Positions 1,526-63,930 of a stretch of 64,000 nucleotides of DNA are shown piece by piece (the first letter of the stretch is position 1; each line of letters opens with the position of its first letter). The DNA is taken from positions 340,501 through 404,500 of the forward strand of contig JACFYK010000035.1 of assembly GCA_021292105.1 (NCBI GenBank). The letters run 5' to 3'. Under the pieces are notes generated by a model, which worked only from the letters and a program-made list of their open reading frames with translations, was not told the DNA's origin and did not search any database. The DNA is from Anadara kagoshimensis. Lineage: Eukaryota; Mollusca; Bivalvia; Arcoida; Arcidae. The position numbers and the translations under genes are program-made.

Positions 1526-4500
1526 GATTCGACATGGATTAGTGTGTTTGTTTTTCATTCTATAATTACATACCGTTGTGGTTGTTGATTCGACATGGAT
1601 TAGTGTGTTTGTTTTTCATTCTATAATTACATACCGTTGTGGTTGTTGATTCGGACATGGATTAGTGTGTTTGTTTTTCATTCTATAATTACATACCGTT
1701 GTGGTTGTTGATTCCACATGGATTAGTGTGTTTGTTATTCATTCTATAATTACATACCGTTGTGGTTGTTGATTCCACATGGATTAGTGTGTTTGTTATT
1801 CATTCTATAATTACATACCGTTGTGGTTGTTGATTCGGACATGGATTAGTGTGTTTGTTATTCATTCTATAATTACATACCGTTGTGGTTGTTGATTCCA
1901 CATGGATTAGTGTATTTGTTATTCTATAATTACATACCGTTGTGGTTGTTGATTCCACATGGATTAGTGTGTTTGTTATTCATTCTATAATTACATACCG
2001 TTGTGGTTGTTGATTCCACATGGATTAGTGTGTTTGTTATTCATTCTATAATTACATACCGTTGTGGTTGTTGATTCGACATGGATTAGTGTGTTTGTTA
2101 TTCATTCTATAATTACATACCGTTGTGGTTGTTGATTCGACATGGATCAGTGAGTTTGTTTTTCATTCTATAATTACATACCGTTGTGGTTGTTGATTCC
2201 ACATGGATTAGTGTGTTTGTTTTTCATTCTATAATTACATACCGTTGTGGTTGTTGATTCGACATGGATTAGTGTGTTTGTTTTTCATTCTATAATTACA
2301 TACCGTTGTGGTTGTTGATTCGACATGGATCAGTGAGTTTGTTTTCATTCTATAATTACATACCGTTGTGGTTGTTGATTCCACATGGATTAGTGTGTGT
2401 GTTTTTCATTCTATAATTACATACCGTTGTGGTTGTTGATTCGACATGGATCAGTGAGTTTGTTTTTCATTCTATAATTACATACCGTTGTGGTTGTTGA
2501 TTCGACATGGATCAGTGAGTTTGTTTTTCATTCTATAATTACATACCGTTGTGGTTGTTGATTCCACATGGATTAGTGTGTTTGTTTTTCATTCTATAAT
2601 TACATACCGTTGTGGTTGTTGATTCGACATGGATCAGTGAGTTTGTTTTTCATTCTATAATTACATACCGTTGTGGTTGTTGATTCGACATGGATCAGTG
2701 AGTTTGTTTTTCATTCTATAATTACATACCGTTGTGGTTGTTGATTCCACATGGATTAGTGTGTTTGTTTTTCATTCTATAATTACATACCGTTGTGGTT
2801 GTTGATTCCACATGGATTAGTGTGTTTGTTTTTCATTCTATAATTACATACCGTTGTGGTTGTTGATTCCACATGGATTAGTGTGTTTGTTTTCATTCTA
2901 TAATTACATACCGTTGTGGTTGTTGATTCCACATGGATTAGTGTGTTTGTTTTTCATTCTATAATTACATACCGTTGTGGTTGTTGATTCGACATGGATT
3001 AGTGTGTTTGTTATTCTATAATTACATACCGTTGTGGTTGTTGATTCCACATGGATTAGTGTGTTTGTTTTTCATTCTATAATTACATACCGTTGTGGTT
3101 GTTGATTCGACATGGATTAGTGTGTTTGTTTTTCATTCTATAATTACATACCGTTGTGGTTGTTGATTCCACATGGATTAGTGTGTTTGTTTTTCATTCT
3201 ATAATTACATAGCGTTGTGGTTGTTGATTCCACATCGATTAGTGTATTTGTTTTTCATACTATAATTACATACCGTTGTGGTTGTTGATTCGACATGGAT
3301 TAGTGTGTTTGTTATTCATTCTATAATTACATACCGTTGTGGTTGTTGATTCGACATGGATCAGTGAGTTTGTTTTTCATTCTATAATTACATACCGTTG
3401 TGGTTGTTGATTCCACATGGATTGTGTGTTTGTTTTTCATTCTATAATTACATACCGTTGTGGTTGTTGATTCGACATGGATTAGTGTGTTTGTTATTCT
3501 ATAATTACATACCGTTGTGGTTGTTGATTCCACATGGATTAGTGTGTTTGTTTTTCATTCTATAATTACATACCGTTGTGGTTGTTGATTCGACATGGAT
3601 TAGTGTGTTTCTTATTCTTTAATTACATACCGTTGTGGTTGTTGATTCCACATGGATTAGTGTGTTTGTTTTTCATTCTATAATTACATACCGTTGTGGT
3701 TGTTGATTCGACATGGATTAGTGTGTTTGTTTTTCATTCTATAATTACATACCGTTGTGGTTGTTGATTCGACATGGATTAGTGTGTTTGTTTTTCATTC
3801 TATAATTACATACCGTTGTGGTTGTTGATTCCACATGGATTAGTGTGTTTGTTTTTCATTCTATAATTACATACCGTTGTGGTTGTTGATTCGACATGGA
3901 TTAGTGTGTTTGTTTTTCATTCTATAATTACATACCGTTGTGGTTGTTGATTCCACATGGATTAGTGTGTTTGTTTTTCATTCTATAATTACATACCGTT
4001 GTGGTTGTTGATTCCACATGGATTAGTGTGTTTGTTATTCATTCTATAATTACATACCGTTGTGGTTGTTGATTCCACATGGATTAGTGTATTTGTTTTT
4101 CATTCTATAATTACATACCGTTGTGGTTGTTCATTCCACATGGATTAGTGTGTTTGTTTTTCATTCTATAATTACATACCGTTGTGGTTGTTGATTCCAC
4201 ATGGATTAGTGTGTTTGTTATTCATTCTATAATTACATACCGTTGTGGTTGTTGATTCGACATGGATTAGTGTGTTTGTTATTCTATAATTACATACCGT
4301 TGTGGTTGTTGATTCCACATGGATTAGTGTGTTTGTTTTTCATTCTATAATTACATACCGTTGTGGTTGTTGATTCGACATGGATTAGTGTGTTTGTTTT
4401 TCATTCTATAATTACATACCGTTGTGGTTGTTGATTCGACATGGATTAGTGTGTTTGTTTTTCATTCTATAATTACATACCGTTGTGGTTGTTGATTCGA

Positions 4501-7500
4501 CATGGATCAGTGAGTTTGTTTTTCATTCTATAATTACATACCGTTGTGGTTGTTGATTCCACATGGATTAGTGTGTGTGTTTTTCATTCTATAATTACAT
4601 ACCGTTGTGGTTGTTGATTCGACATGGATCAGTGAGTTTGTTTTTCATTCTATAATTACATACCGTTGTGGTTGTTGATTCGACATGGATCAGTGAGTTT
4701 GTTTTCATTCTATAATTACATACCGTTGTGGTTGTTGATTCCACATGGATTAGTGTGTTTGTTTTTCATTCTATAATTACATACCGTTGTGGTTGTTGAT
4801 TCGACATGGATCAGTGAGTTTGTTTTTCATTCTATAATTACATACCGTTGTGGTTGTTGATTCCACATGGATTAGTGTGTTTGTTTTTCATTCTATAATT
4901 ACATACCGTTGTGGTTGTTGATTCCACATGGATTAGTGTGTTTGTTTTCATTCTATAATTACATACCGTTGTGGTTGTTGATTCCACATGGATTAGTGTG
5001 TTTGTTTTTCATTCTATAATTACATACCGTTGTGGTTGTTGATTCGACATGGATTAGTGTGTTTGTTATTCATTCTATAATTACATACTGTTGTGGTTGT
5101 TGATTCGACATGGATTAGTGTGTTTGTTTTTCATTCTATAATTACATACCGTTGTGGTTGTTGATTCGACATGGATTAGTGTGTTTGTTTTTCATTCTAT
5201 AATTACATACCGTTGTGGTTGTTGATTCCACATGGATTAGTGTTTGTTTTTCATTCTATAATTACATACCGTTGTGGTTGTTGATTCGACATGGATTAGT
5301 GTATTTGTTTTTCATTCTATAATTACATACCGTTGTGGTTGTTGATTCGACATGGATTAGTGTGTTTGTTTTTCATTCTATAATTACATACCGTTGTGGT
5401 TGTTGATTCGACATGGATCAGTGAGTTTGTTTTTCATTCTATAATTACATACCGTTGTGGTTGTTGATTCGACATGGATTAGTGTGTTTGTTTTTCCTTC
5501 TATAATTACATACCGTTGTGGTTGTTGATTCGACATGGATCAGTGAGTTTGTTTTCATTCTATAATTACATACCGTTGTGGTTGTTGATTCCACATGGAT
5601 TAGTGTGTTTGTTTTTCATTATATAATTACATACCGTTGTGGTTGTTGATTCCACATGGATTAGTGTGTTTGTTATTCATTCTATAATTACATACCGTTG
5701 TGGTTGTTGATTCGACATGGATTAGTGTGTTTGTTATTCATTCTATAATTACATACCGTTGTGGTTGTTGATTCGACATGGATCAGTGAGTTTGTTTTTC
5801 ATTCTATAATTACATACCGTTGTGGTTGTTGATTCCACATGGATTAGTGTGTTTGTTTTTCATTCTATAATTACATACCGTTGTGGTTGTTGATTCGACA
5901 TGGATCAGTGAGTTTGTTTTTCATTCTATAATTACATACCGTTGTGGTTGTTGATTCGACATGGATTAGTGTGTTTGTTTTTCATTCTATAATTACATAC
6001 CGTTGTGGTTGTTGATTCGACATGGATTAGTGTGTTTGTTTTTCATTCTATAATTACATACCGTGTGGTTGTTGATTCCACATGGATTAGTGTGTTTGTT
6101 TTTCATTCTATAATTACATACCGTTGTGGTTGTTGATTCGACATGGATTAGTGTGTTTGTTTTTCATTCTATAATTACATGCCGTGTGGTTGTTGATTCC
6201 ACATGGATTAGTGTGTTTGTTTTTCATTCTATAATTACATACCGTTGTGGTTGTTGATTCCACATGGATTAGTGTGTTTGTTTTTCATTCTATAATTACA
6301 TACCGTTGTGGTTGTTGATTCGACATGGATCAGTGAGTTTGTTTTTCATTCTATAATTACATACCGTTGTGGTTGTTGATTCACATGGATTAGTGTGTTT
6401 GTTTTTCATTCTATAATTACATACCGTTGTGGTTGTTGATTCCACATGGATTAGTGTGTTTGTTTTTCATTCTATAATTACATACCGTTGTGGTTGTTGA
6501 TTCCACATGTTTTAGTGTGTTTGTTTTTCATTCTATAATTACATACCGTTGTGGTTGTTGATTCCACATGGATTAGTGTGTTTGTTTTTCATTCTATAAT
6601 TACATACCGTTGTGGTTGTTGATTCCACATGGATTAGTGTGTTTGTTATTCATTCTATAATTACATACCGTTGTGGTTGTTGATTCGACATGGATCAGTG
6701 AGTTTGTTTTTCATTCTATAATTACATACCGTTGTGGTTGTTGATTCGACATGGATCAGTGAGTTTGTTTTTCATTCTATAATTACATACCGTTGTGGTT
6801 GTTGATTCCACATGGATTAGTGTTTTTGTTTTTCATTCTATAATTACATACCGTTGTGGTTGTTGATTCCACATGGATTAGTGTGTTTGTTATTCATTCT
6901 ATAATTACATACCGTGTGGTTGTTGATTCCACATGGATTAGTGTGTTTGTTTTTCATTCTATAATTACATACCGTTGTGGTTGTTGATTCGACATGGATT
7001 AGTGTGTTTGTTTTTCATTCTATAATTACATACCGTGTGGTTGTTGATTCCACATGGATTAGTGTGTTGTTTTTCATTCTATAATTACATACCGTTGTGG
7101 TTGTTGATTCCACATGTTTTAGTGTGTTTGTTTTTCATTCTATAATTACATACCGTTGTGGTTGTTGATTCCACATGGATTAGTGTGTTTGTTTTTCATT
7201 CTATAATTACATACCGTTGTGGTTGTTGATTCCACATGGATTAGTGTGTTTGTTTTTCATTCTATAATTACATACCGTTGTGGTTGTTGATTCCACATGG
7301 ATTAGTGTGTTTGTTATTAATTCTATAATTACATACCGTTGTGGTTGTTGATTCGACATGGATTAGTGTGTTTGTTATTCATTCTATAATTACATACCGT
7401 TGTGGTTGTTGATTCCACATGGATTAGTGTGTTTGTTATTCATTCTATAATTACATACCGTTGTGGTTGTTGATTCGACATGGATTAGTGTGTTTGTTTT

Positions 7501-7900
7501 TCATTCTATAATTACATACCGTTGTGGTTGTTGATTCCACATGGATTAGTGTGTTTGTTTTTCATTCTATAATTACATACCGTTGTGGTTGTTGATTCCA
7601 CATGGATTAGTGTGTTTGTTTTTCATTCTATAATTACATACCGTTGTGGTTGTTGATTCCACATGGATTAGTGTGTTTGTTATTCATTCTATAATTACAT
7701 ACCGTTGTGGTTGTTGATTCCACATGGATTAGTGTATTTGTTATTCTATAATTACATACCGTTGTGGTTGTTGATTCCACATGGATTAGTGTGTTTGTTA
7801 TTCATTCTATAATTACATACCTTTGTGGTTGTTGATTCCACATGGATTAGTGTGTTTGTTTTTCATTCTATAATTACATACCGTTGTGGTTGTTGATTCC
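1526..7900. repeat. 61-bp satellite array, about 104 copies
   Basis: A continuous head-to-tail array of a 61-bp unit that includes CATTCTATAATTACATACCG and GTTGTGGTTGTTGATT. Two main variants intermix: one reads GATTCCACATGGATTAGTGTG-like, the other GATTCGACATGGATCAGTGAG-like. Rare units are 55-57 bp through loss of CATT or a T. Divergence is low, which suggests recent homogenisation. A block of variants at about 2377-3000 recurs in nearly the same order at about 4555-5100, so there is higher-order structure. The first unit is preceded by ATTGTGATTCGACATGG rather than the internal TGTTGATTCG, which may preserve the founder's flank. Confidence 0.97.
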
Positions 7901-8661: not shown

Positions 8662-8990
8662 GAGAGACCGTAAAACACCATAACTACACTTCTTGTTACG
8701 GTAAGGGGATGTCATGGATTCGAACCCCCACCGGGTAGGCCAAAGACTTTTGAAAAAAAAGTTAGCGTCTGTTCTTTTGTCAAGCACTCGGCATTTAGGT
8801 ATAGAGAAATAGTCACGGGATTCTTTGGAATCTCTAAAAAAACAATGCAGGTGTGGCACGTTATGTAATACAGCATATTGTCCTGAGCGCACTTCAAGGG
8901 TAAAACATTTTGCCACTTCACATCATCGAAAGCTTGTAACGCCTCAATATAAGTGAAATATTGTTGACTTGGATGTTTAATCCCATTCAG
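8662..8990 (+). mobile_element. tRNA-derived SINE, diverged, overlapping the receptor's last exon
   Basis: Matches the intact SINE at 30283-30621 along its length: a B-box-like GGATTCGAACCCC with CCGGGTAGGCCAAAGAC after it, then CAAGCACTCGGCAT, AGTCACGGGATTCTTTGGAAT, and the family tail CAATATAAGTGAAATATTG ending near 8988. The 5' A-box region is too diverged to place. It lies in the opposite orientation to the receptor gene and supplies the end of its coding sequence. Confidence 0.8.
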
Positions 8991-11900: not shown

Positions 11901-13527
11901 CAAATATAAATTACACACACACACACATATATATATATATATCAGGCCCCAGTTTCACAATCATTTTTCAAGATTTTCTTTAACTTAAATCTGACAAATT
12001 AAAAACCTTTATAATTTTGTTATTGTTAAGATATTAGCGAATTAAAGGTGTCATTTTAAAGAGTATATCAAGCTTATGACATCTGCATTTAGTTTTGAGA
12101 ATAATACCTTATTCATAGTTCCAAAAAAAGTTCGTTAAAATTTGCTAAATTACAGTTAAGGAAAATCTTAGTTAAAGAATGATTGTGAAACCGGGACAAG
12201 GAACTCACTGAAAATTTACATAGATATATACAATATGTATATAACCAAACAGCACAGCACAATATGATTAAAACACAACATAATAATTATTTAATACAAC
12301 ACAACATAACACAATACAATCCAATGTACAACATAACATGATACAACCCATGTATAACATAACACAATAAAACATATATCGCGTTATGATAAGCTTGATT
12401 TGCACGGCAATGGAAGTGATAGAACTATAAACGCCATTTCTAAACGTGAAATTCCAACAGCCAATCAATGACGTCACGGCTATAGGTTCAAACAAAAGAT
12501 GAGTGACGTCACATTAGTAATTGTAATTATAGTCCTGTAGCTTCATTTGGTCTCAAACAGAGTTAAATACAATCAAACATCAGAAGTGTAAATATAACAT
12601 AATATACAACAAGAGAAAGACAACATCAAAACCATTAGACACCAAGGTATAATTTAATATTCTATGAATCACGTTCAATATAGTCAAGGATTTTATAAAA
12701 CGAGTTCGAGTTGAGTAATAACGTTTAGCGTCCCAGTCAAGAATATTGCATTTATATCGAGACGTCGCAAGCCATAGGCGAAGGTGCAGAAATTTTGCCT
12801 GTGCGTTGGCTGATAATGCAGGGCTCTTTCTCATGCCACGCCTTTCGTGACACGGAACCTCGTTTAAGTTTCCATCCGAAAGATTTCTTTGGCGAAAGAA
12901 CAATGACTACCCACTTTCAAGTCTTGGGTCAGACCCGGACGGGGTTCGAACCCACGACTTCCCACTTTCGGAGCAAGAACTCTACCAACAGAGATTACCG
13001 CAGTTGTAATAAAACGATTTTGGGTCAATATCTGCAAGCGTTTAGAAGAAATCCGAAAACCACTACACTGTATTTGAAAGAAAGTTCGAAGCTCGCAATA
13101 AACAAAAACTCAATGAGCCGGAACGAAATTCAAACTTGATCTGTAACTTAAGATGGTAGACTCACATACCAAATATTAGTTTACCATATACAAGTGTTTA
13201 AAAACCGATACACTTTTATTTTGAAGAAATGTTTTAACTCCAAGGCCCAAAATTCCGTTGACTTGATTCAACATATTAAACAATACTTAGATTACTTTAG
13301 TAAAGTATATTTTGGTCATTTTGGTATCTTCAACATCTTGAAAACAATTTTGGTCCATTATGATTGATGAGGAATTGTATTCCGAAACGGCCGTCTAGTG
13401 CTGTAAAATGAAAACTGGTATAATATGGAATTAAGTCCAAGGCCCAAATTTCTTCACTTGATTCAATATAACAAAACTTACCCAGGCAGATCAGCATAAA
13501 ACACAACAGCTTTATCAAACCGTCCAT
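8712..13527 (-). CDS. Leucine-rich-repeat GPCR (LGR / relaxin receptor / GRL101-like), three exons
   Basis: Modelled exons: 13527-13482, 11379-9850, 9145-8712 (TGA stop). Splice sites seen: donors CTGG|GTAAGT and CTAG|GTGAGA, acceptors TTTGTAG| and TTTTTCAG|. Both introns are phase 1 and the sum is 2010 bp, giving 669 residues. Order: signal peptide (1-15, MDGLIKLLCFMLICL), Cys-rich N-terminus (about 21-85), about four LRRs (148-250), hinge ADSYAFCC (251-258), TM1 with GN (289-312), TM2 with NLSISD (325-349), TM3 with SSESSV (368-391), LDRF in place of DRY (391-394), TM4 (410-430), TM5 (458-484), TM6 (505-528), TM7 ending NPFLY (555-559). Cys 368 and 443 can form the usual ECL disulfide. This is the type-C LGR pattern: a plasma-membrane receptor for a peptide or glycoprotein hormone, ligand unknown. 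I see no LDLa module, although RXFP and GRL101 have them. Residues about 580-669 are SINE-derived. An upstream ATG at 13548 in the same frame is an alternative start. Confidence 0.88.
9150..9330. repeat. Degenerate ~20-bp repeat in receptor intron 2
   Basis: Eight or so imperfect copies of a unit like TTCATAAAAATACCAAACAA, next to the acceptor of the last receptor exon. Confidence 0.75.
9331..9845. other. Rest of receptor intron 2, with a possible inverted-repeat element relic
   Basis: AT-rich intron sequence. The stretch 9640-9810 holds TACTGTAAACCAG and repeated TCGCGAAA / GCGAATTT motifs resembling the small inverted-repeat element at 55488-55658, but the termini are too decayed to define it. 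Confidence 0.35.
11434..11500. repeat. Short GC-rich inverted repeat in receptor intron 1
   Basis: ATGGCGCGTAGAGT at the left is answered by ACTCTACGCGCCAAT at the right, with TTTCGCGC and TTCGCTTTGGCG between. Similar TTTGGCG and TTGCGCTTTGG motifs continue to about 11570. Probably a decayed foldback element. Confidence 0.5.
11670..11726. repeat. (ATT)n microsatellite
   Basis: An interrupted ATT/TTA trinucleotide run within receptor intron 1. Confidence 0.9.
11914..11942. repeat. (AC)n(AT)n microsatellite
   Basis: An AC run passing into an AT run, immediately left of an inverted-repeat element. Confidence 0.9.
11946..12197. mobile_element. Small inverted-repeat DNA element (MITE-like)
   Basis: Left end GCCCCAGTTTCACAATCATT and the reverse complement of the right end, GTCCCGGTTTCACAATCATT, differ at few positions, and the similarity continues inward (AAGATTTTC-TTAACT). 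About 250 bp, AT-rich, no coding capacity. A target-site duplication is not clear because the left flank is an AT microsatellite. A much shorter relative lies at 41008-41060. Confidence 0.7.
12198..12700. other. Receptor intron 1, low-complexity ACAACATAACAC repeats
   Basis: 12250-12370 has loosely repeated ACAACATAACACAATA motifs. The rest is AT-rich with no coding frame I can support. Confidence 0.5.
12704..13008 (-). mobile_element. tRNA-derived SINE in receptor intron 1
   Basis: On the minus strand it starts CAACTGCGGTAATCTC, has an A-box-like GTTGGTAGAG and a B box GGGTTCGAACCCC, then CGTCCGGGTCTGACCC, and ends with the family tail (CGAGACGT and TATAAATGCAATATTCTTG on that strand). The 9-bp ATAAAACGA lies at both ends (12695-12703 and 13009-13017) and fits a target-site duplication. 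Same orientation as the host gene. Confidence 0.9.
13018..13480. other. Receptor intron 1, 5' part, with a ~38-bp direct repeat
   Basis: A segment around CCAAGGCCCAAATTTC...CTTGATTCAA occurs at about 13237-13275 and again at 13433-13472, about 196 bp apart, the second copy ending next to the exon 1 donor. The minus-strand frame stays open from exon 1 through the second copy, but the strong donor makes an intron the simpler reading. Confidence 0.5.
13482..13527 (-). other. Candidate exon 1 of the receptor: signal peptide
   Basis: Encodes MDGLIKLLCFMLICL plus one base of the next codon, then a consensus donor GG|GTAAGT. The one leftover G joins AA from the exon at 11379 to give Glu, so reading frame is kept. 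A hydrophobic leader directly upstream of a secreted Cys-rich domain on the same strand is what the receptor needs. Because both introns are phase 1, further phase 1-1 modules could lie in the 2.1-kb gap and I would not necessarily have seen them. Confidence 0.7.
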
Positions 13528-22010: not shown

Positions 22011-22076
22011 TCGTTCATATAGACAATATTTTGTTAGCAGTATTAGATAAAATAGTAGTATACCTTTCTGAAGCTG

Positions 22077-22536
22077 AACTTCATTAGGCGTCGAGGTAAC
22101 ATAACGCCTAATGAATTCCCTTATTATATCTCGTTACATGTACATAGTGGACTTCATTAGGCGTCGAGGTAACATAACGCCTAATGAAGTCCCTAACTAT
22201 ATCTTATTACACAGTGAACTTCATTAGGCGCGTCGAGGTAACTTAACGCCTAATGAAGTCCCTTACTACATCTTTGTACATAGTGGATTTCATTAGGTGT
22301 CGGGGTAACTTAACGCCTAATGAAGTCCCTTACTATATCTTATTACAAAATGGACTTAATTAGGCGTTAAGTTACCTCGACGCCCTAATGAAGTCCACTG
22401 TGTACAAAGATATAATAAGGGACTTCATTAGGCGTTAAGTTACCCCGACGCCTAATGAAGTCCACTATGTACATGTAATAAGATATAGTAAGGGAATTCA
22501 TTAGGCGTTATGTTACTTCGACGCCTAATGAAGTTC
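22077..22536. repeat. Array of seven hairpins arranged as an inverted repeat
   Basis: Seven ~44-bp palindromic units with stems ACTTCATTAGGCGT / ACGCCTAATGAAGT around a 10-13-base loop (GAGGTAACATA-like): 22077-22117, 22149-22192, 22215-22262, 22285-22328, 22352-22396, 22420-22463, 22494-22536. Spacing is about 70 bp. The first four loops read GAGGTAAC or GGGGTAAC and the last three read the reverse complement, so the array turns around near 22340. Spacers (TATATCTTATTAC and CTATGTACA-like) are also inverted. A half-unit lies at 23397-23430. Confidence 0.95.
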
Positions 22537-22737
22537 ATTATACATGTACGTATGATGGATTCTAAGAAACCTTGTTGAGAAATTTAGCGGAGAAGATAGA
22601 TAAAAATAAGAATAAATAAATAAATATTATTATATTTTGGGCACCTTATTACATGCATGGTAATGCACGCAAAATTGAAATATTGTAAAATGCAAAACAA
22701 TAGCAGGGTGTTGCTAATGTCATCTACATGTAGGAAT

Positions 22738-22989: not shown

Positions 22990-23450
22990 ATTTAAACAAT
23001 AGTTCTCGATTGGTACCTTTTATGCCTCCCCAAAAAGAGTTAAAACTATATATAACGGTCTTTGGAGAGACAAATACCTCCCTTTCCCAACATCCAGACG
23101 GACGGGCAGACGGACAATAACGTTGGTTCCATGTTTGATTAAAATCCATTCTTAGGAATGGAAGCTACATATGTAAAGCTGACACGATATTTTGACGGAC
23201 CGACGGACGGACGGACAGGTTGATTCGTACAAATACCCCCTAAACATTTTGCGGGGTATGGTACGGTTGGACAAAGCACACGATGTATGTGCCTGAATGT
23301 ACGTTGCTATTGCTAGTTGGTCCAAATTGAAGTCGTAAAATTTTGAGACTTTTTTTGGTAATATCAAAAAGTCTCCTCGTCTGGAGCCCCAATCTGTGGA
23401 CTTCATTAGGCGTCGGACTTCATTAGGAGTTGTTACAGCGCTCTCTTGGA
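22990..23450. repeat. Dispersed repeat remnants with (GGAC)n-type runs
   Basis: Holds GACGGACGGGCAGACGGAC and GACGGACGGACGGACAGG runs and, at 23397-23430, a half-copy of the 22.1-kb hairpin unit. The open frame on the minus strand at 23152-23514 crosses these repeats and is not called a gene. Confidence 0.5.
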
Positions 23451-24525
23451 CAACAGCGTCTCTCAACGCTAAGGTTAAAATCCCACTTAGGACAGATAAT
23501 TTAGTATAGGGCAATTCTTCAGGTCGCTTGCCGAAGGTATGACACTCCGGATTCCTCTACCATCTCTGAACTCGTACGATCTTGACAAATCTTGACTAGG
23601 CCGTCAAATTCCAGTACTCCATTCCAATGCTCTCAATTTTACAGCAAAAATATTTTGCCACGGAAGGCCTAAATATCAATTGAAATTAATGGTTTCAACT
23701 GTTCAACAAAGTCTAGTGGCAAACGGAGATTTTTCTGGCAGTTTTGAGAAAGCGCCTTTGGTTGGATACACATCACCATATACAAGCATCATCGAATATA
23801 TAGGTTCCTCAGCTTTATACCTCAATTTTTCTGCAGTCATTTTGGATTTTTCTCCTACATAATATGGAATAGAATACAGTGTGCTTTTTGCCATTGGTAA
23901 TCGTTCCTTTTATCAGACCCTGTGTGTGTCCAGAAAAATCCCTGGGTCATAGATTGTTTTAAAGTTTATATTATGGAATCATCGTTTTCGTTGTGTCAAA
24001 TGTTCGTGGTTTTAAGAACATATACCATTTTGTTGAGTGATTAGCTCGTGATATGATATACTGATAACTAATCATTTATTTACTACACATCAAGTGTTAA
24101 TACAGTATTTCGTCGACATGTAATTTCGCGGACCACCAAGGGTTCCGCGAAAACACCGAAATTCGGACTTCTGGAAAATAATTGATTTCACAGTATATTT
24201 GAAAATAAAATCTTTTATCGAGGCGTAGTAGATCTACAGATTATAAGTCAAAGTATACCCTTCAAAACCGACAATACAAAAACAAATCACGAAATTGAAC
24301 AACACGGGTGTTTATTTCCGTATGTCATGTACATGTGCTACTATTGAACGAAATTTTTTTTAATATAAAAATTCAAAAGTACATGACACATATAATATTT
24401 TGGACCAAATGTTAAACGAAACTTATCCGCGAATTTTAAGAAAGTCATGTGATGTAAGGCGCGAAATTCGAAGGAATTTTTTATCGCTAAATATTTGAAA
24501 CAAGGAAAATGAGAGCAGTGATATA
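23451..24525. other. Unannotated AT-rich DNA
   Basis: No recognised gene. 24115-24180 and 24420-24480 carry TTTCGCGG / CCGCGAAA and GGCGCGAAATTCG motifs of the kind seen in small inverted-repeat elements, without definable ends. Confidence 0.4.
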
Positions 24526-30282: not shown

Positions 30283-30621
30283 AACCACTGTGGTAGCTCA
30301 GTTGATAGAGTGCTCGCTCCGTAAGTGAAAGGTTGTGGGTTCGATCCCCGGCCGGGTCTGACCCAAGACTTGAAAGTGGGTAGTGACTGTTTTTTCGCCA
30401 AGCACTCAGCATTACGAAATAAGTCACGGTTCTTTCGGATGGGAACTTAAAATAAACGAGGTCCCGTGTCACGGTGGGCTTGGCACGCAAAAGAACCCTG
30501 CTGTATAATGCCATCAGCGCAATGCACAGGCAAAATTTCTGCACCTTCGCCTATAGCTGGCAACGTCTCGATATAAGTGAAATATTCTTGACTAGGACGT
30601 TAAACACCATTACTCAACTAC
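30283..30621 (+). mobile_element. Complete tRNA-derived SINE with target-site duplications
   Basis: A perfect 14-bp duplication TCCTTTTCTATTAT flanks it (30269-30282 and 30622-30635). The body starts AACCACTGTGG, has an A box TAGCTCAGTTGATAGAG and a B box GGGTTCGATCCCC, a central region (CCAAGCACTCAGCAT, AGTCACGGTTCTTTCGGATG) and the tail CGTCTCGATATAAGTGAAAT ending ACTAGGACGTTAAACACC. 339 bp. Use it as the reference copy for the other SINEs in the window. Clean ends and intact duplications suggest a fairly recent insertion. Confidence 0.95.
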
Positions 30622-30734
30622 TCCTTTTCTATTATGAAGTAAAGTTTCCAAAAGAATATTGTAGCTTTAAGTTGGGTAAAGACTAAAATACCATCTAATT
30701 ACATACATGTATACATGGTATGTATTTAAAAACT

Positions 30735-33700
30735 ATGGATCACAGTGCCTCATCTTCTAGGTTCAAATCCAACTCAGGACAGTTCCTAGTAAGAACAAGT
30801 TTGTCGGTTTGCCTGTCGGTGGTCAGTTGTTGTTTGAAGACACTCTGGTGTCCTATACCATTCCTTATGTGGGTTTGCCTGTCTGTGGTCAGTTGTTGTT
30901 TGTAGACACTCTGGTGTCCTATACCATTCCTTATGTCGGTTTGTCTGTCTGTGGTCAGTTGTTGTTTGTAGACACTCTGGTGTCCTATACCATTCCTTAT
31001 GTCGGTTTGTCTGTCTGTGGTCAGTTGTTGTTTGTAGACACTCTGGTGTCCTCCACCATTCCTTATGTAGGTTTGTCTGTCTGTAGTCAGTTGTTGTTTG
31101 TAGACACTCTGGTGTCCTATACCATTCCTTATGTCTGTTTGTCTGTCTGTTGTCAGTTGTTGTTTGTAGACACTCTGGTGTCCTATACCATTCCTTATGT
31201 CGGTTTGTCTGTCTGTGGTCAGTTGTTGTTTGTAGACACTCTGGTGTCCTCCACCATTCCTTATGTCGGTTTGTCTGTCTGTGGTCAGTTGTTGTTTGTA
31301 GACACTCTGGTGTCCTATACCATTCCTTATGTCGGTTTGTCTGTCTGTGGTCAGTTGTTGTTTGTAGACACTCTGGTGTCCTATACCATTCCTTATGTCG
31401 GTTTGTCTGTCTGTGGTCAGTTGTTGTTTGTAGACACTCTGGTGTCCTATACCATTCCTTATGTCGGTTTGTCTGTCTGTGGTCAGTTGTTGTTTGTAGA
31501 CACTCTGGTGTCCTCCACCATTCCTTATGTAGGTTTGTCTGTCTGTGGTCAGTTGTTGTTTGTAGACACTCTGGTGTCCTATACCATTCCTTATGTCGGT
31601 TTGTCTGTCTGTGGTCAGTTGTTGTTTGTAGACACTCTGGTGTCCTATACCATTCCTTATGTCGGTTTGTCTGTCTGTGGTCAGTTGTTGTTTGTAGACA
31701 CTCTGGTGTCCTATACCATTCCTTATGTAGGTTTGTCTGTCTGTGGTCAGTTGTTGTTTGTAGACACTCTGGTGTCCTATACCATTCCTTATGTCGGTTT
31801 GTGTCTGTCTGTGGTCAGTTGTTGTTTGTAGACACTCTGGTGTCCTATACCATTCCTTATGTAGGTTTGTCTGTCTGTGGTCAGTTGTTGTTTGTAGACA
31901 CTCTGGTGTCCTATACCATTCCTTATGTCGGTTTGTCTGTCTGTGGTCAGTTGTTGTTTGTAGACACTCTGGTGTCCTATACCATTCCTTATGTCGGTTT
32001 GTCTGTCTGTGGTCAGTTGTTTGTTTGTAGACACTCTGGTGTCCTCCACCATTCCTTATGTGGGTTTGTCTGTCTGTAGTCAGTTGTTGTTTGTAGACAC
32101 TCTGGTCCTATACCATTCCTTATGTCAGTTTGTCTGTCTGTGGTCAGTTGTTGTTTGTAGACACTCTGGTGTCCTCCACCATTCCTTATGTGGGTTTGTC
32201 TGTCTGTGGTCAGTTGTTGTTTGTAGACACTCTGGTGTCCTATACCATTCCTTATGTGGGTTTGTCTGTCTGTGGTCAGTTGTTTGTAGACACTCTGGTG
32301 TCCTCCACCATTCCTTATGTAGGTTTGTCTGTCTGTGGTCAGTTGTTGTTTGTAGACACTCTGGTGTCCTATACCATTCCTTATGTGGGTTTGTCTGTCT
32401 GTGGTCAGTTGTTTGTAGACACTCTGGTGTCCTCCACCATTCCTTATGTAGGTTTGTCTGTCTGTGGTCAGTTGTTGTTTGTAGACACTCTGGTGTCCTC
32501 CACCATTCCTTATGTGGGTTTGTCTGTCTGTAGTCAGTTGTTGTTTGTAGACACTCTGGTGTCCTATACCATTCCTTATGTCAGTTTGTCTGTCTGTGGT
32601 CAGTTGTTGTTTGTAGACACTCTGGTGTCCTCCACCATTCCTTATGTGGGTTTGTCTGTCTGTGGTCAGTTGTTGTTTGTAGACACTCTGGTGTCCTATA
32701 CCATTCCTTATGTGGGTTTGTCTGTCTGTGGTCAGTTGTTTGTAGACACTCTGGTGTCCTCCACCATTCCTTATGTAGGTTTGTCTGTCTGTGGTCAGTT
32801 GTTGTTTGTAGACACTCTGGTGTCCTCCACCATTCCTTATGTCGGTTTGTCTGTCTGTGGTCAGTTGTTGTTTGTAGACACTCTGGTGTCCTACACCATT
32901 CCTTATGTCTGTTTGTCTGTCTGTGGTCAGTTGTTGATTGTAGACACTCTGGTGTCCTCCACCATTCCTTATGTGGGTTTGTCTGTCTGTGGTCAGTTGT
33001 TGTTTGTAGACACTCTGGTGTCCTACACCATTCCTTATGTCTGTTTGTCTGTCTGTGGTCAGTTGTTGATTGTAGACACTCTGGTGTCCTATACCATTCC
33101 TTATGTCAGTTTGTCTGTCTGTGGTCAGTTGTTGTTTGTAGACACTCTGGTGTCCTACACCATTCCTTATGTGGGTTTGTCTGTCTGTGGTCAGTTGTTG
33201 TTTGTAGACACTCTGGTGTCCTCCACCATTCCTTATGTGGGTTTGTCTGTCTGTGGTCAGTTGTTGTTTGTAGACACTCTGGTGTCCTACACCATTCCTT
33301 ATGTCTGTTTGTCTGTCTTTGGTCAGTTGTTGATTGTAGACACTCTGGTGTCCTATACCATTCCTTATGTCAGTTTGTCTGTCTGTGGTCAGTTGTTGTT
33401 TAAAGACACTCTGGTGTCCTATACCATTCCTTATGTGGGTTTGTCTGTCTGTGGTCAGTTGTTGTTTGTAGACACTCTGGTGTCCTACACCATTCCTATG
33501 TCTGTTTGTCTGTCTGTGGTCAGTTGTTGATTGTAGACACTCTGGTGTCCTATACCATTCCTTATGTCAGTTTTCTGTCTGTGGTCAGTTGTTGTTTAAA
33601 GACACTCTGGTGTCCTCCACCATTCCTTATGTCAGTTTGTCTGTCTGTGGTCAGTTGTTTGTTGTAGACACTCTGGTGTCTCCACCATTCCTTATGTGGG

Positions 33701-36245
33701 TTTGTCTGTCTGTGGTCAGTTGTTTGTAGACACTCTGGTGTTCTCCACCATTCCTTATGTGGGTTTGTCTGTCTGTGGTCAGTTGTTGTTTGTAGACACT
33801 CTGGTGTCCTACACCATTCCTTATGTCTGTTTGTCTGTCTGTGGTCAGTTGTTGATTGTAGACACTCTGGTGTCCTATACCATTCCTTATGTCAGTTTGT
33901 CTGTCTGTGGTCAGTTGTTGTTTGTAGACACTCTGGTGTCCTACACCATTCCTTATGTGGGTTTGTCTGTCTGTGGTCAGTTGTTGTTTGTAGACACTCT
34001 GGTGTCCTCCACCATTCCTTATGTGGGTTTGTCTGTCTGTGGTCAGTTGTTGTTTGTAGACACTCTGGTGTCCTATACCATTCCTTATGTCGGTTTGTCT
34101 GTCTGTGGTCAGTTGTTGTTTGTAGACACTCTGGTGTCCTATACCATTCCTTATGTCGGTTTGTCTGTCTGTGGTCAGTTGTTGTTTGTAGACACTCTGG
34201 TGTCCTCCACCATTCCTTATGTGGGTTTGTCTGTCTGTGGTCAGTTGTTGTTTGAAGACACTCTGGTGTCCTCCACTATTCCTTATGTAGGTTTGTCTGT
34301 CTGTGGTCAGTTGTTGTTTGAAGACACTCTGGTGTCCTATACCATTCCTTATGTCGGTTTGTCTGTCTGTGGTCAGTTGTTGTTTGTAGACACTCTGGTG
34401 TCCTCCACCATTCCTTATGTGGGTTTGTCTGTCTGTGGTCAGTTGTTGTTTGAAGACACTCTGGTGTCCTCCACTATTCCTTATGTAGGTTTGTCTGTCT
34501 GTGGTCAGTTGTTGTTTGTAGACACTCTGGTGTCCTACACCATTCCTTATGTCTGTTTGTCTGTCTGTGGTCAGTTGTTGATTGTAGACACTCTGGTGTC
34601 CTATACCATTCCTTATGTCAGTTTGTCTGTCTGTGGTCAGTTGTTGTTTAAAGACACTCTGGTGTCCTATACCATTCCTTATGTGGGTTTGTCTGTCTGT
34701 GGTCAGTTGTTGTTTGTAGACACTCTGGTGTTCTCCACCATTCCTTATGTGGGTTTGTCTGTCTGTGGTCAGTTGTTGTTTGTAGACACTCTGGTGTTCT
34801 CCACCATTCCTTATGTCAGTTTGTCTGTCTGTGGTCAGTTGTTGTTTAAAGACACTCTGGTGTCCTATACCATTCCTTATGTGGGTTTGTCTGTCTGTGG
34901 TCAGTTGTTGTTTGTAGACACTCTGGTGTCCTCCACCATTCCTTATGTCGGTTTGTCTGTCTGTGGTCAGTTGTTGTTTGTAGACACTCTGGTGTCCTAT
35001 ACCATTCCTTATGTGGGTTTGTCTGTCTGTGGTCAGTTGTTGTTTGTAGACACTCTGGTGTCCTCCACCATTCCTTATGTCTGTTTGTCTGTCTGTGGTC
35101 AGTTGTTGATTGTAGACACTCTGGTGTCCTATACCATTCCTTATGTCGGTTTGTCTGTCTGTGGTCAGTTGTTGTTTGTAGACACTCTGGTGTCCTCCAC
35201 CATTCCTTATGTCGGTTTGTCTGTCTGTGGTCAGTTGTTGTTTGTAGACACTCTGGTGTCCTCCACCATTCCTTATGTCTGTTTGTCTGTCTGTGGTCAG
35301 TTGTTGATTGTAGACACTCTGGTGTCCTATACCATTCCTTATGTCGGTTTGTCTGTCTGTGGTCAGTTGTTGTTTGTAGACACTCTGGTGTCCTCCACCA
35401 TTCCTTATGTCTGTTTGTCTGTCTGTGGTCAGTTGTTGTTTGTAGACACTCTGGTGTCCTCCACCATTCCTTATGTGGGTTTGTCTGTCTGTGGTCAGTT
35501 GTTGTTTGTAGACACTCTGGTGTCCTCCACCATTCCTTATGTGGGTTTGCCTGTCTGTGGTCAGTTGTTGTTTGTAGACACTCTGGTGTCCTATACCATT
35601 CCTTATGTCGGTTTGTCTGTCTGTGGTCAGTTGTTGTTTGTAGACACTCTGGTGTCCTATACCATTCCTTATGTCAGTTTGTCTGTCTGTGGTCAGTTGT
35701 TGTTTAAAGACACTCTGGTGTCCTCCACCATTCTTTATGTAGGTTTGCCTGTCTGTGGTCAGTTGTTGTTTGAAGACACTCTGGTGTCCTATACCATTCC
35801 TTATGTCGGTTTGTCTGTCTGTGGTCAGTTGTTGTTTGTAGACACTCTGGTGTCCTATACCATTCCTTATGTCAGTTTGTCTGTCTGTGGTCAGTTGTTG
35901 TTTGTAGACACTCTGGTGTCCTCCACCATTCCTTATGTCGGTTTGCCTGTCTGTGGTCAGTTGTTGTTTGTAGACACTCTGGTGTCCTATACCATTCCTT
36001 ATGTCAGTTTGCCTGTCTGTGGTCAGTTGTTGTTTAAAGACACTCTGGTGTCCTATACCATTCCTTATGTCGGTTTGTCTGTCTGTGGTCAGTTGTTGAT
36101 TGTAGACACTCTGGTGTCCTATACCATTCCTTATGTCGGTTTGCCTGTCTGTGGTCAGTTGTTGATTGTAGACACTCTGGTGTCCTCCGCCATTGCTAAA
36201 CTGAATGCCTCAGTATTAGTGAAACTATTTTGACTGGTGTAAATA
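30735..36245 (+). mobile_element. SINE-type element split by a 66-bp tandem expansion
   Basis: A B-box-like GGTTCAAATCC lies at 30760-30770, and at the far end, after the array, TTAGTGAAACTATTTTGACT-GGTGTAAATAAG (36215-36247) resembles the SINE tail. Between them is the array of 66-bp units, whose core GACACTCTGGTGTCCTCCAC parallels GGCACTCTGGTTTCCTCCAC in the SINE-like repeat at 53.8 kb. Taken together, a SINE appears to have grown an internal tandem array. The A box is not identifiable. Confidence 0.6.
30790..36195. repeat. 66-bp satellite array, about 82 copies
   Basis: Unit: GTTTGTCTGTCTGTGGTCAG, TTGTTGTTTGTAGACACTCT, GGTGTCCTATACCATTCCTT, ATGTCG. Common variants: TCCACC for TATACC, GTTGATTG, TTTAAAGA, TATGTGGG and a 3-bp-shorter TTGTTTGTAG form. 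Since 66 = 3 x 22, two forward frames and one reverse frame stay open for long stretches, up to 845 codons of a 22-residue repeat (GLSVCGQLLFVDTLVSYTIP plus YV). Single-base gaps at several places break the frame without any sign of selection for it, so I read this as non-coding satellite. Confidence 0.97.
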
Positions 36246-36247
36246 AG

Positions 36248-37040
36248 ACTTAACTATTAAAAACTTAATGGATGTTCTATTAATTGCTTTTCAATCATCA
36301 CTTATTTTTGGATTGTTCAATTGTTTTTAAAGTGGATTCGTGTTGTATAAGTTTTTGAAATAACTTTTAACAGTGTTTGATATTAATTTTTGTTAGGTAA
36401 TAAGTGTCATCATTAATTTTAAATTCTCATATATTTTTATTAATAGAATTACTACTTCCAAATAGAAAAATTATGACACATTTTTTTCCATCCCATTTCA
36501 TACCAGCATAGTCTTGACCTAATTAATTAGAACACCTTCAATTTTTTCCTTTCCTAATACTTCCGAGTTCATTTTTAAGTTTCTGGAGTTTATGTAGATT
36601 TTCAGTAAATGGATTATCATCAAACTTCGTGATAAATGTTACCTTTTTTTCTCATTTGTCTTTTTCATTTCTTATTTTTGTCTATGTACAGAAATGAATG
36701 CAATGACTTAAATTTGTATCCGAGTTGCAACAAAGTTGAACTTGACTATTTACGTGATTAATTTGGTGATACAGATGTACAAGATTTGGTATGTGAATCT
36801 TCCACGAGTTTAAATCAAGTTTTGTCCTGGTTCACTTATGTTTGACAAAATTATGGTTCTTGGACTGAGATTTATTTTTCAAAATAAGTTTTCCAGACCC
36901 TTTTTTTTCTAAACTTGCAGATATTGAATTAAAATTTTGCTCATGGATTATAGAATATACAGAATATATTGTAACATTTTTATTGCACCAGGAGGCCTAT
37001 AGATTTCTAATGTACTTTATTTTATCTAGTTATTATTTTT
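36248..37040. other. Unannotated AT-rich DNA
   Basis: About 790 bases with no coding frame or element I can support. Confidence 0.5.
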
Positions 37041-49239: not shown

Positions 49240-49495
49240 TGATGTCTCTGTGTCCAGGATTGCCCTGGATATATTTGATGTCTCATAGTTCCATGTTCCT
49301 TTCACACAATTTTGATTACACACATGGCGGGTGTAGCTAGCTAAACAGGAGGTGCTTAACCTTTCTGAGCACCCGGCCTCGCTTCCCAGGTGGAAGTTCA
49401 CGTGTCTAACCCAACTTGTCAGTTCCAAAGTTTTTACTTTGCTTCTGGATTGTGATTCGGACATGGATTAGTATGTTTGTTTTTGATTGATGTTT
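49240..49495. repeat. Dispersed repeat ending in a relative of the 61-bp satellite unit
   Basis: TATATTTGATGTCTCATAGT, GTGTAGCTAGCTAAACAGGA, GGTGCTTAACC and GAGCACCCGGCCTCGCTTCC match 53629-53760. It then continues through TTTTTACTTTGCTTCTGG into ATTGTGATTCGGACATGG-ATTAGTATGTTTGTTTTT, nearly the same as the first unit of the satellite at 1526. Confidence 0.8.
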
Positions 49496-50935: not shown

Positions 50936-51274
50936 TGTACAAACTACAGCATTGAAGGAGCTAGGACAAACAGTAGACAAGTTCAGGGGCCAGGTTGTGA
51001 TAAAACTTCCAACTTTGTTGAGACATACCTTAACAACAAAGTGTACTTCATTTATAGCTAAAAAGTAACATTTCACAAAGTAATGTGAAAGAATAAATAA
51101 CAATAAAAGTCTTTTCAGTTTTGTATTTGACAAAAACTACACCAATAAGAGAACTGACTAGTAAAACTACCTGGGTACCATGTTTTGATTAATTTCAGAA
51201 CACTAGACACAGCTCACTGTCACTAATATGTATTTCATCAAATTCAATATTCCTTTGATTACAAACATACCTTT

Positions 51275-52085
51275 CAGTAGCACCCAGTCTCACTTCCCTG
51301 GTGAAAGTTCAGGTGTTTTACCTAAATTGCTATTTTCAAAGTTTTTACTGTGCTTTTGTGATTGTGGTTTGGACATGGAGAGTAGATCATCGTCAGGGAG
51401 AAGAGGACCTTGCAGTTCTGTGAAAGTGCCTGTTAAATCGCCCAGTTCATAGTTAGGGAGTACATGTTCATCATGGAAAGTGCCTGCGGAACCTGGTAAG
51501 TCAGGGAGTAGTGGTGCTGCAAGGTGCCTTGAATTTTTGGATTGTGGTTTGGACATGGACTGGCACTTTGCTTTTTGGATTGTGGTTTAGACATGGATTG
51601 GCACCTGGTGTCACTTCCTTTGTGAAAATTCAGGGATTCAATTAAATTTTGGGATTGTGGTTTGGACATGGTTTGGCAAAAATGATATTTTTTTGTCTTT
51701 TACCTTCAAGCAAGTCCTTTTTTGTATTTTCAATAATTTACATAATTTTAATATCTTTTTTTTAATTTTAGTATTTTGTTTTTGAGGTTTTTTGATAGGT
51801 GGGAGGGAGGGGGGCTCAGTAAAACTTCATTACTCCAAGAAGGTACTCTAGACCAGTTAGTGTAGTTCAGGCTGTTGAGCGTAAACCACACGATAGTTCC
51901 AGACCCTTATCGTCATCGTCAGGGAGTAGAGGACCTTGCAGTTCTGTGAAAGTGCCTGTTAAATCGCCCAGTTCATAGTTAGGGAGTACATGTTTATCAT
52001 GGAAAGTGCCTGCGGAACCTGGGAAGTCGGGAGTAGTGGAGGCTGCAAGCCACCTAATTTTTTTGGATTGTGGTTTTAGTGTCAT
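51275..52085 (-). repeat. Duplicated ~170-bp segment and repeated MSKPQS-encoding motif
   Basis: 51389-51530 and 51905-52045 are near-identical direct copies. On the minus strand both stay open and encode PGSAGTFHD(E/K)HVLPNYELG followed by DLTGTFTELQGPLLPDDD. A motif GATTGTGGTTTGGACATG (minus strand MSKPQS) occurs at about 51358, 51540, 51583 and 51654, and in part at 52064. Flanking CACTTCCCTGGTGAAAGTTC relates it to the dispersed repeats at 49.3 and 53.7 kb. Either a repeat with fortuitous frames or exons of an unrecognised gene; the first is likelier. Confidence 0.6.
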
Positions 52086-53619: not shown

Positions 53620-53885
53620 CTATTGCCTGGATATATTTGATGTCCCATAGTTCCTTTTGATTACACACGTGGCAGGTGTGGCTAGCTAAACAGGAGGTGC
53701 TTATCCTTCCAGAGCACCCGGCCTCACTTCCCTGGTGGAAGTTTACGTTTCTAACCTTTATCAATTCACTTGTGGAAGAGTGATGTTCTCTGGGCACTCT
53801 GGTTTCCTCCACCATCATCAAAATGACCACATATAAGTGAAATAATTGACTGTGGTGTAAAACTCCATTGATAAGTAAAATATAT
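53620..53885 (+). mobile_element. SINE-like dispersed repeat with central core and tail
   Basis: Left half matches 49250-49400 (TATATTTGATGTCCCATAGT, GGCTAGCTAAACAGGAGGTG, GAGCACCCGGCCTCACTTCC). Right half has TCTCTGGGCACTCTGGTTTC-CTCCACCATCA and the tail ATATAAGTGAAATAATTGAC with GGTGTAAAACTCC. The central CTCTGG(G)-CTCCACCA core is the same one amplified in the arrays at 30.8-36.2 and 54.2-55.5 kb. I believe it is related to a conserved central domain shared by several molluscan SINE families, but cannot check. Confidence 0.65.
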
Positions 53886-54118: not shown

Positions 54119-54149
54119 TGACTATTTGTAAAACAACTCCATATAGTTT

Positions 54150-55487
54150 CCATCTCGGTGGTCTAAGGTGTGTGGTTACGGATCATCTCGGTGGTTACGG
54201 ATCACTGCCTTTACACACCTAGGTTTGATTCTCAATCGGGGCACATCATAGTGTGAGAAAGTTTGATTGCTGATTATCGGAGGTTTTCTCTGGGTACTCT
54301 GGTTTTCTCCACCATCACAGAACTATGACAGCTTTGATATACTGTAAATTGCTGATTATCGGAGGTTTTCTCTGGATACTCTGATTTTCTCCACCATCAC
54401 AGAACTATGACAGCTTTGATATACTGTAAATTGCTGATTATCGGAGGTTTTCTCTGGGTACTCTGGTTTTCTCCACCATCACAGAACTATGACAGCTTTG
54501 ATATACTGTAAATTGCTGATTATCGGAGGTTTTCTCTGGGTACTCTGGTTTTCTCCACCATCACAGAACTATGACAGCTTTGATATACTGTAAATTGCTG
54601 ATTATCGGAGGTTTTCTCTGGGTACTCTGGTTTTCTCCACCATCACAGAACTATGACAGCTTTGATATACTGTAAATTGCTGATTATCGGAGGTTTTCTC
54701 TGGATACTCTGGTTTTCTCCACCATCACAGAACTATGACAGCTTTGATATACTGTAAATTGCTGATTATCGGAGGTTTTCTCTGGGTACTCTGGTTTTCT
54801 CCACCATCACAGAACTATGACAGCTTTGATATACTGTAAATTGCTGATTATCGGAGGTTTTCTCTGGATACTCTGGTTTTCTCCACCATCACAGAACTAT
54901 GACAGCTTTGATATACTGTAAATTGCTGATTATCGGAGGTTTTCTCTGGATACTCTGATTTTCTCCACCATCACAGAACTATGACAGCTTTGATATACTG
55001 TAAATTGCTGATTATCGGAGGTTTTCTCTGGGTACTCTGATTTTCTCCACCATCACAGAACTATGACAGCTTTGATATACTGTAAATTGCTGATTATCGG
55101 AGGTTTTCTCTGGATACTCTGGTTTTCTCCACCATCACAGAACTATGACAGCTTTGATATACTGTAAATTGCTGATTATCGGAGGTTTTCTCTGGGTACT
55201 CTGATTTTCTCCACCATCACAGAACTATGACAGCTTTGATATACTGTAAATTGCTGATTATCGGAGGTTTTCTCTGGATACTCTGGTTTTCTCCACCATC
55301 ACAGAACCATGACAGCTTTGATATACTGTAAATTGCTGATTATCGGAGGTTTTCTCTGGGTACTCTGGTTTTCTCCACCATCACAGAACTATGACAGCTT
55401 TGATATACTGTAAATTGCTGATTATCGGAGGTTTTCTCTGGGTACTCTGGTTTTCTCCACCATCACAGAACCATGACAGCTTTGATA
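54150..55487 (+). mobile_element. SINE with an internal 82-bp tandem expansion, about 15 copies
   Basis: A tRNA-like head at about 54152-54240 (CGGTGGTCTAAGGTGTGTGG, then a B-box-like AGGTTTGATTCTCAATCGGG) leads into units of 82 bp: CTGATTATCGGAGGTTTTCT, CTGGGTACTCTGGTTTTCTC, CACCATCACAGAACTATGAC, AGCTTTGATATACTGTAAAT, TG. Units are almost identical (GGGTACT/GGATACT and CTGG/CTGA variants). The array stops at an inverted-repeat element whose end shares TACTGTAAATTG with every unit. Confidence 0.85.
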
Positions 55488-55658
55488 TACTGGAAATTGG
55501 GAAATTTTTGCGATCGTTTTATTTTGGCGTAAATTTGCAAGTGAAACAAGTCACGAAAATAAGTTTCCTGAAAAAATATGCAGTAGTTAAAATTATAACT
55601 ACAAAGTTGCGAATAAATATTAAAGTGGGATGATGCGAAAATTTCCCAATCTACAGTA
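55488..55658. mobile_element. Small inverted-repeat element (MITE-like)
   Basis: Left end TACTGGAAATTGGGAAATTT-TTGCG and, inverted, right end TACTGTAGATTGGGAAATTT-TCGCA. 171 bp. The interior has CGCGA/CACGAAAAT motifs. Relic relatives may lie at 9640-9810 and 24.1-24.5 kb. Confidence 0.8.
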
Positions 55659-56189
55659 AGTGAACGAATCTTGACTGGGGCATAAGACAACATTATTCTA
55701 CTCTAATCTATATAATGTTAGGTCTATATAATATTAAGTTGTTTCCATTCATGGTAAACAAAAATTCCATTGCCTAGTAATTTCTGAGAAATTCCTCACT
55801 ATTTTAGTAAATTTGTTAAAAAATAATTTAAAAAAGAACTATTTTCACAAATTATGGAAATGGTTACTAATATTAAATTTGTGATAATTTATAAAGATTA
55901 CCAGTATAAAGTCAATCTTCTATGTAGCTATGATAAAATATTTTTTGTTTGTCACTGATTTAAAAAGTTGGTATATTACAGAATATATTTGTTCCGAAAA
56001 ATGATAAGATGTTTTTAAAGCAGGACTTTTTCTGATTTTTTAAAAAGTGGTCAGGGCCATGACTTTGGGGATTTAGCATACTTAGCCTAATTCTATAAAA
56101 ATTGGGAATTTCAAATATAAAAATCAAGTTATTTCATTTACATGTATAAAGAAATGATAATTTATATCATCCAAAGTGTAAATAAAATT
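55659..56189. other. Unannotated AT-rich DNA
   Basis: No feature I can support. Confidence 0.5.
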
Positions 56190-63649: not shown

Positions 63650-63930
63650 AGCACTGAGAGTCAACGTTGAACCACGGTCGTATCGCATCCGGGTAAGACT
63701 TGTTCCTTCGCTAAACGCTCAGCACCAAGAAGTGGAAGTCGTCACGGGAACATTAACAAAGGTAACGTGTCACTTTATATTTATATAGGCGATAAAGAAT
63801 CTTCAATACACATGACATACACACACTGTACAGACAAAATTCCGTACTTCGACCTAGCATTGGTGGCGTCTCGATATAAGTCAGTGAAATATTCTTGACC
63901 GGGACGTAATAAAACCCCATTATAACTCAA
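63650..63930 (+). mobile_element. SINE, head degraded
   Basis: CGGGTAAGACTTGTTCCTTC and CTAAACGCTCAGCACC align with the centre of the SINE at 30283-30621, and TGGCGTCTCGATATAAG, GAAATATTCTTGACCGGGAC and the end AAAACCCCATTATAACTCAA give the tail. The tRNA head is not recognisable. Confidence 0.85.

Follow-up and report, generated by a model that had tools for sequence, protein, structure and literature searches.

Satellite DNA derived from short interspersed elements (SINEs) has been described in several animals. The closest known cases are the squamate sSat1-3 families (PMC10702118), whose units measure about 70-290 bp, are shorter than the SINE itself and come from its 5′, middle or 3′ parts. 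They are present in a few to hundreds of copies, longer arrays are more homogeneous, and unit number varies between related genomes. Most of these arrays keep one extended SINE end and occur at many loci, but an uncommon variant has its tandem units between both SINE ends. Here we analyze a 66-bp tandem array which resembles that variant, in a different host and a different SINE. It lies in a 64,000-nucleotide stretch of the bivalve Anadara kagoshimensis, referred to as the window (C31:340501-404500, C31 being contig JACFYK010000035.1), from an assembly of 1.115 Gb in 36 contigs. The array very probably arose by amplification of the SINE interior in place, through insertion of the SINE, internal duplication and growth to 82 units on C31. 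Unlike most sSat arrays it has kept both SINE ends and the target-site repeat, and a one-unit counterpart exists in the same assembly.

Two other systems are more distant. PcH-sat of the limpet Patella caerulea is related to a Nin-SINE, and a 118-bp stretch of it matches a tRNA-type SINE (PMC11121367); its 179-bp unit makes up about 10% of the genome and is mainly pericentromeric, whereas the present array, found at a single locus, is 5.4 kb long. Alu- and B1-derived minisatellites (PMC6947457) are likewise SINE-derived tandems, with units that include 6 and 8 bp and others given without a length. SINE-derived satellites are therefore already known, and it is the before/after pair that is the valuable part of the observations below: a one-unit counterpart in the same assembly is not reported in the titles and abstract openings of the SINE-satellite literature surveyed.

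The element carrying the array starts at TATGGATCAC, a point past the A box, and is thus 5′-truncated. Its head contains the B box GGTTCAAATCC (30760-30770), followed by a linker ending in AAGTT(TG); the array then leads into the SINE tail (Table 1). Monomers, identified with the anchor GACACTCTGGTGT allowing at most two mismatches, are arranged head to tail and 72 of the 81 spacings are exactly 66 bp. Tandem Repeats Finder (TRF) reports 30802-36186, with period 66, 81.8 copies and 94% matches; the last monomer has a diverged 3′ end that reaches about 36199. In pairwise comparison the monomers are on average 0.933 identical, and 43 of the 82 are distinct. The first and last carry private changes, and the last continues directly into the tail. 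Within the array a 333-bp stretch recurs exactly at lag 786 and a 266-bp stretch at lag 456, which indicates that several monomers were copied together; no dominant lag suggests higher-order structure (0.925-0.944 across lags 1-20).

When placed on a majority SINE of about 240 bp derived from 19 dispersed copies (A box at 27, B box at 77, core ACTCTGGTTTCCTCCACC at 159, tail ATATAAGTGAAA at 198), the 66-bp unit corresponds to the linker-to-core segment, at positions of about 119-182. An earlier reading of the window from sequence alone (the sequence-only reading) had proposed an array bounded by a B-box-like head and a SINE tail and produced by some 82-fold amplification of an internal segment of one SINE, and both proposals agree with the structure found here. 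Its statement that the unit contains the SINE core needs amendment: the core does lie within the unit, but the form named, CACTCTGGTGTCCTCCACC, is only one monomer variant; many monomers carry CCTATACC, and ACTCTGGTTTCCTCCACC is the family majority. In terms of the sSat definition, with at least four tandem middle units from a portion of a SINE and a terminal unit running into a SINE end, 82 units here and 15 in a second array of the window map on the SINE, and the terminal unit runs into the SINE end at both ends of the 66-bp array.

The assignment of head and tail to a SINE was assessed with a leave-one-out profile, built from the three other copies in the window with the tested element excluded. 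It recovers the head (30737-30862, E 5.6e-11) and the core plus tail (36168-36249, E 1.3e-6). The element "collapsed" by reducing its array to one unit matches the three other copies, at 23447-23615, 53770-53885 and 54-55 kb, with z values of 11.4, 13.3 and 14.2, scores reached by none of 1000 shuffles; only the copy at 54 kb spans both ends in these comparisons, the others covering head to core or core to tail. Dispersed matches to the tail cover query positions of about 36-110. The B-box pattern GGTTCRANTCC occurs twice in the window against 0.16 expected, and one of 100 shuffles reaches two. The 9-bp target-site repeat TTAAAAACT directly borders the element on both sides; among 5000 AT-matched random pairs, 32 reach a length of 9 (p about 0.006). 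This duplication is clear, while those at the other elements tried are unconvincing: 5 and 6 bp at the 54-kb and 23-kb copies, where wider windows score 7-8, and a score of 8.5 at a copy on contig C1.

The 19 dispersed copies come from 38 matches listed outside C31 and C11, all picked by similarity; scoring covered 40 candidates out of 307 in one search and 40 out of 69 in another, and numbers from genome matching are lower bounds. A motif search with the generally known A- and B-box consensus (at most four and two mismatches, respectively) located the A box in 16 copies, the B box in 17, the core in 18 and the tail in 17. All four occur in order in 12/19 copies, and B box, core and tail in 13/19. 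The sequence-only reading had staked its case on head and tail belonging to one SINE family of this genome with a consensus related to the unit; the alignment indeed places both in the same family, whose consensus contains the 66-bp unit. In 18 of the 19 copies the element is matched once. The remaining one (L026) has a second, partial match. In another copy (L022), an internal repeat of 87 bp (69%) lies downstream of the SINE match. The core motif ACTCYGGTKTYCTCYACC is found 3,975 times genome-wide (2015 forward and 1960 reverse), the reversed control giving 0 + 0. The boxes suggest a head of RNA polymerase III (Pol III) type. A scan of the head for sigma-70 promoters and terminators, an uninformative test in an animal genome, gave nothing. 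Searches of plasmids, viral contigs, prokaryote contigs and papers with the letters of the core gave no match.

The region C11:7070146-7070805 contains both flanks of the array and the SINE with exactly one unit. When compared with the array-collapsed window (30622-30801 plus 36134-36613), it shows 632 identities, 24 mismatches and 8 gap letters, with 112/113 identities in the left flank, and the TTAAAAACT repeat is kept on both sides of the SINE. Among the matches listed, C31 and C11 are the only contigs with the unique left and right flanks, and multi-unit 66-bp matches are confined to C31; as far as these searches reach, this bears out the single locus of the sequence-only reading. On other contigs, the matches listed at 86% or better comprise this C11 copy, one on C16 that covers the head only (86%), and matches restricted to core and tail on C2 and C17 (88% each). 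The sequence-only reading had also called for a search for an empty or unexpanded allele in other individuals, and an unexpanded form is present on C11, although in the same assembly and not in another individual.

The C11 copy could in principle be a collapsed array. An exchange between the first and last monomers of an ancestral array would leave one unit, and the flanks on C31 and C11 are nearly identical. The C11 unit, however, ends in CCATAACCGAACTG and does not look like a fusion of the array's outermost monomers in the window, the first with CCATTCCTTA and the last with CCATTGCTAA. Since, in addition, the dispersed copies are one-unit elements, growth is preferred to collapse by unequal exchange, which we regard as unlikely. 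The SINE part itself differs between C31 and C11 at 13/183 positions against 11/464 in the flanks (Fisher p 0.009), a divergence about three times higher. This does not fit a collapse either, but simple growth in place does not predict it, and it weighs against amplification in place together with two other observations. One is that the SINE head is not recognized as a tRNA: ARAGORN found none in the window or in 20 loci, and Rfam none at the gathering score in the window, in three head regions or in 12/19 dispersed copies. We consequently dropped the label of tRNA-derived SINE after these scans. The other is that left of about 14 kb in the window there is no clear homology between C31 and C11 (7.036-7.058 Mb), where only weak matches to a 61-bp array (64-71%) and dispersed repeats are present, so that C31 and C11 do not simply match as alleles. 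As to the excess of SINE divergence, our guesses are that other copies converted it or that the mutation rate is raised beside the growing array.

Alternatively, the array could be a mobile unit which spread together with SINE ends, as the variable number tandem repeat of SVA elements does, or which entered a SINE from circular DNA or a Helitron carrier. Satellite-like repeats carried by Helentrons are reported for oyster (PMC7492417). The restriction of listed multi-unit matches to C31 argues against such a history, as do the left flank, which is unbroken through the first monomer, and the reduction to one unit, which reproduces the C11 copy. A Helitron, miniature inverted-repeat transposable element (MITE) or long terminal repeat (LTR) frame was looked for and none was seen at the flanks, because terminal-repeat scores stay within the null (median 11, 95% point 14; 485 draws, with start points taken from a small fixed set): between the 600-bp flanks of the array the highest-scoring inverted match reaches 12.0, and direct repeats reach 12.5. 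We therefore hold a mobile or inserted array to be very unlikely. It is scarcely credible that the assembler made the array length or the C31/C11 pair. The partial collinearity of the 422-kb C31 with the 44.2-Mb C11 counts in favour of such an artefact, but the number of distinct monomers speaks against it, and so does a gene on C31 (9830-11527 of the window, minus strand) for a rhodopsin-type receptor containing leucine-rich repeats (7tm_1, E 1.7e-28; LRR_8, E 1.6e-24), which lacks a close second copy in this assembly, the next best match reaching 67%. This receptor gene also identifies the host as an animal.

The collinear chain between the two contigs comprises 16 pieces and 31,579 aligned columns, with a mean identity of 0.854 when gaps are included. 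It extends from 12.7 kb in the window (C11 7.058 Mb) beyond the window end to C31:414 kb (C11:7.110 Mb); its first piece, 273 bp at 75%, may be merely another dispersed repeat. Identity is 94.6% in an 8-kb block and less elsewhere. An 82-bp array at 28645 has 11.9 units on C31 and 20 on C11. Array lengths differ widely between the contigs, a 58-bp array occupying about 5 kb on C31 and 0.9 kb on C11. C31 may represent a haplotype that has diverged and differs by the presence or absence of sequence, or else a duplicated region. The before/after comparison holds whether C31 and C11 are alleles or duplicates.

For amplification in place, we infer the following order of events. A 5′-truncated SINE with Pol III-type boxes would have inserted by target-primed reverse transcription, leaving the TTAAAAACT repeat. 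The linker-to-core segment would then have duplicated in place with little or no microhomology; by eye, none is clear at the joints CCTTA/TGTCGG and TGTAA/ATTGCTG. Unequal exchange, presumably the engine of growth, together with duplication or conversion of several units at a time, could have raised the number to 82 on C31 while C11 kept one. A hairpin was considered as a cause: the 66-bp unit contains GACAC TCTG GTGTC, but its folding z is only -1.26, and the 82-bp unit of the second array in Table 1 lacks this stem (folding z -0.15). The array includes open reading frames of up to 877 amino acids, which we did not take as a gene: they are long because the unit is 66 bp (3 x 22), which leaves 4/6 frames stop-free.

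Tandem growth has also occurred at other loci of the family. The second array, overlooked in the sequence-only reading, lies 18 kb downstream of the first. From the B box up to the first unit, the two heads share an ungapped 44-bp alignment with 29/44 identities, and the leave-one-out profile matches the second element from 54199 (E 5.3e-13). On C11 the counterpart has the same SINE and the same insert, with 3 units versus 15. No target repeat was found at this second array. The profile that matched the 54-kb tail had contained that tail, and the leave-one-out profile missed it, as it did the end of the 23-kb copy; these two tails are thus less sure. On contig C1 an array at 28348072-28349603 (61 bp x 24.9) has a core-to-tail unit and a full SINE head but, judged by reading, no normal 3′ end, and the same family forms a 132 bp x 2.6 repeat at C1:7144991-7145339. 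These come from the first 100 core matches listed, covering C1 up to 28.38 Mb, which merge into 86 loci if positions up to 400 bp apart are counted together, at least two of them tandem; the count is a lower bound because two exact cores close together were needed. The tandem share is 2/86 among the C1 loci listed and 2/4 among the core-bearing copies of the window. On the SINE, the starts of the 66- and 82-bp units agree to about 2 bp, just after AAGTTTG; with two cases, this agreement can be chance. Other tandem units differ in their SINE start and stop positions. Tentatively, the family may be a recurrent satellite seed (66, 82, 61 and 132 bp), a feature of the element or its chromatin possibly promoting growth and growth possibly raising the local mutation rate.

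Table 1. Positions, in window coordinates, of the expanded SINEs, their arrays and related copies
Feature	Position	Strand	Basis or remark
Left target-site repeat TTAAAAACT	30726..30734	+	Exact 9-bp match to 36257-36265; kept on C11
SINE head, 5′-truncated, without A box	30735..30801	+	Leave-one-out profile; alignment with 19 dispersed copies
Satellite array	30802..36199	+	82 monomers of 66 bp; TRF, anchor count, map on SINE majority
SINE tail (3′ region)	36200..36256	+	Leave-one-out profile match; dispersed matches
Right target-site repeat TTAAAAACT	36257..36265	+	Directly outside SINE tail
One-unit relative	23447..23615	+	Leave-one-out finds 23454-23572, E 1.7e-8; last 43 bp missed
Another unexpanded relative, core and tail	53757..53885	+	Leave-one-out 53757-53868, E 1.2e-10
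Second expanded SINE, head	54146..54265	+	B-box-like GGTTTGATTC; 5′ start uncertain
Second SINE-derived array	54266..55495	+	15 monomers of 82 bp, mean identity 0.984
Inverted-repeat element (ATTGGGAAATTTTTGC ... GCGAAAATTTCCCAAT)	55496..55650	.	Between second array and tail; also on C11
Probable tail, second SINE	55651..55700	+	BLAST to SINE tail 30574-30619, 76%, E 1.7e-5

The tail of the studied SINE is common to other SINE-like elements of the window. Those of another type, at 8710-8985, 12700-13000 (minus strand), 30400-30616 and 63700-63925, share this 3′ tail (about CTCGATATAAGTGAAATATTCTTGAC) but have a different body, and the end of one copy lies some 110 bp upstream of the head of the 66-bp array. 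A weak tRNA match (15.1 bits, gathering score 29) at 12936-13000 belongs to a different element. Tandem repeats make up about 48.6% of the window (merged TRF rows). They include a 61-bp satellite of 105 units at 1525-7900, starting with TGTGATTCGACATGGATTAGTGTGTTTGTTTTT. This is close to the end (49443-49488) of another dispersed element, 49259-49488, with relatives at 51269-51379, 53622-53757 and 30188-30132 (minus strand), a likeness which points to a further repeat-to-satellite link in the same window. Arrays weakly similar to this satellite (64-71%) are found at C11:7046935-7047393. In the TRF table, 22075-22548 consists of tandem units containing inverted repeats (ACTTCATTAGGCG ... CGCCTAATGAAGT).

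None of these observations implies a host function for the array. Satellite origins are usually reconstructed from arrays that are already old, whereas here forms of the same insertion with 1 and 82 units coexist. The pairs of 1/82 and 3/15 units allow the first duplication, growth and homogenization to be studied directly, and the rate of satellite birth per SINE copy becomes estimable.

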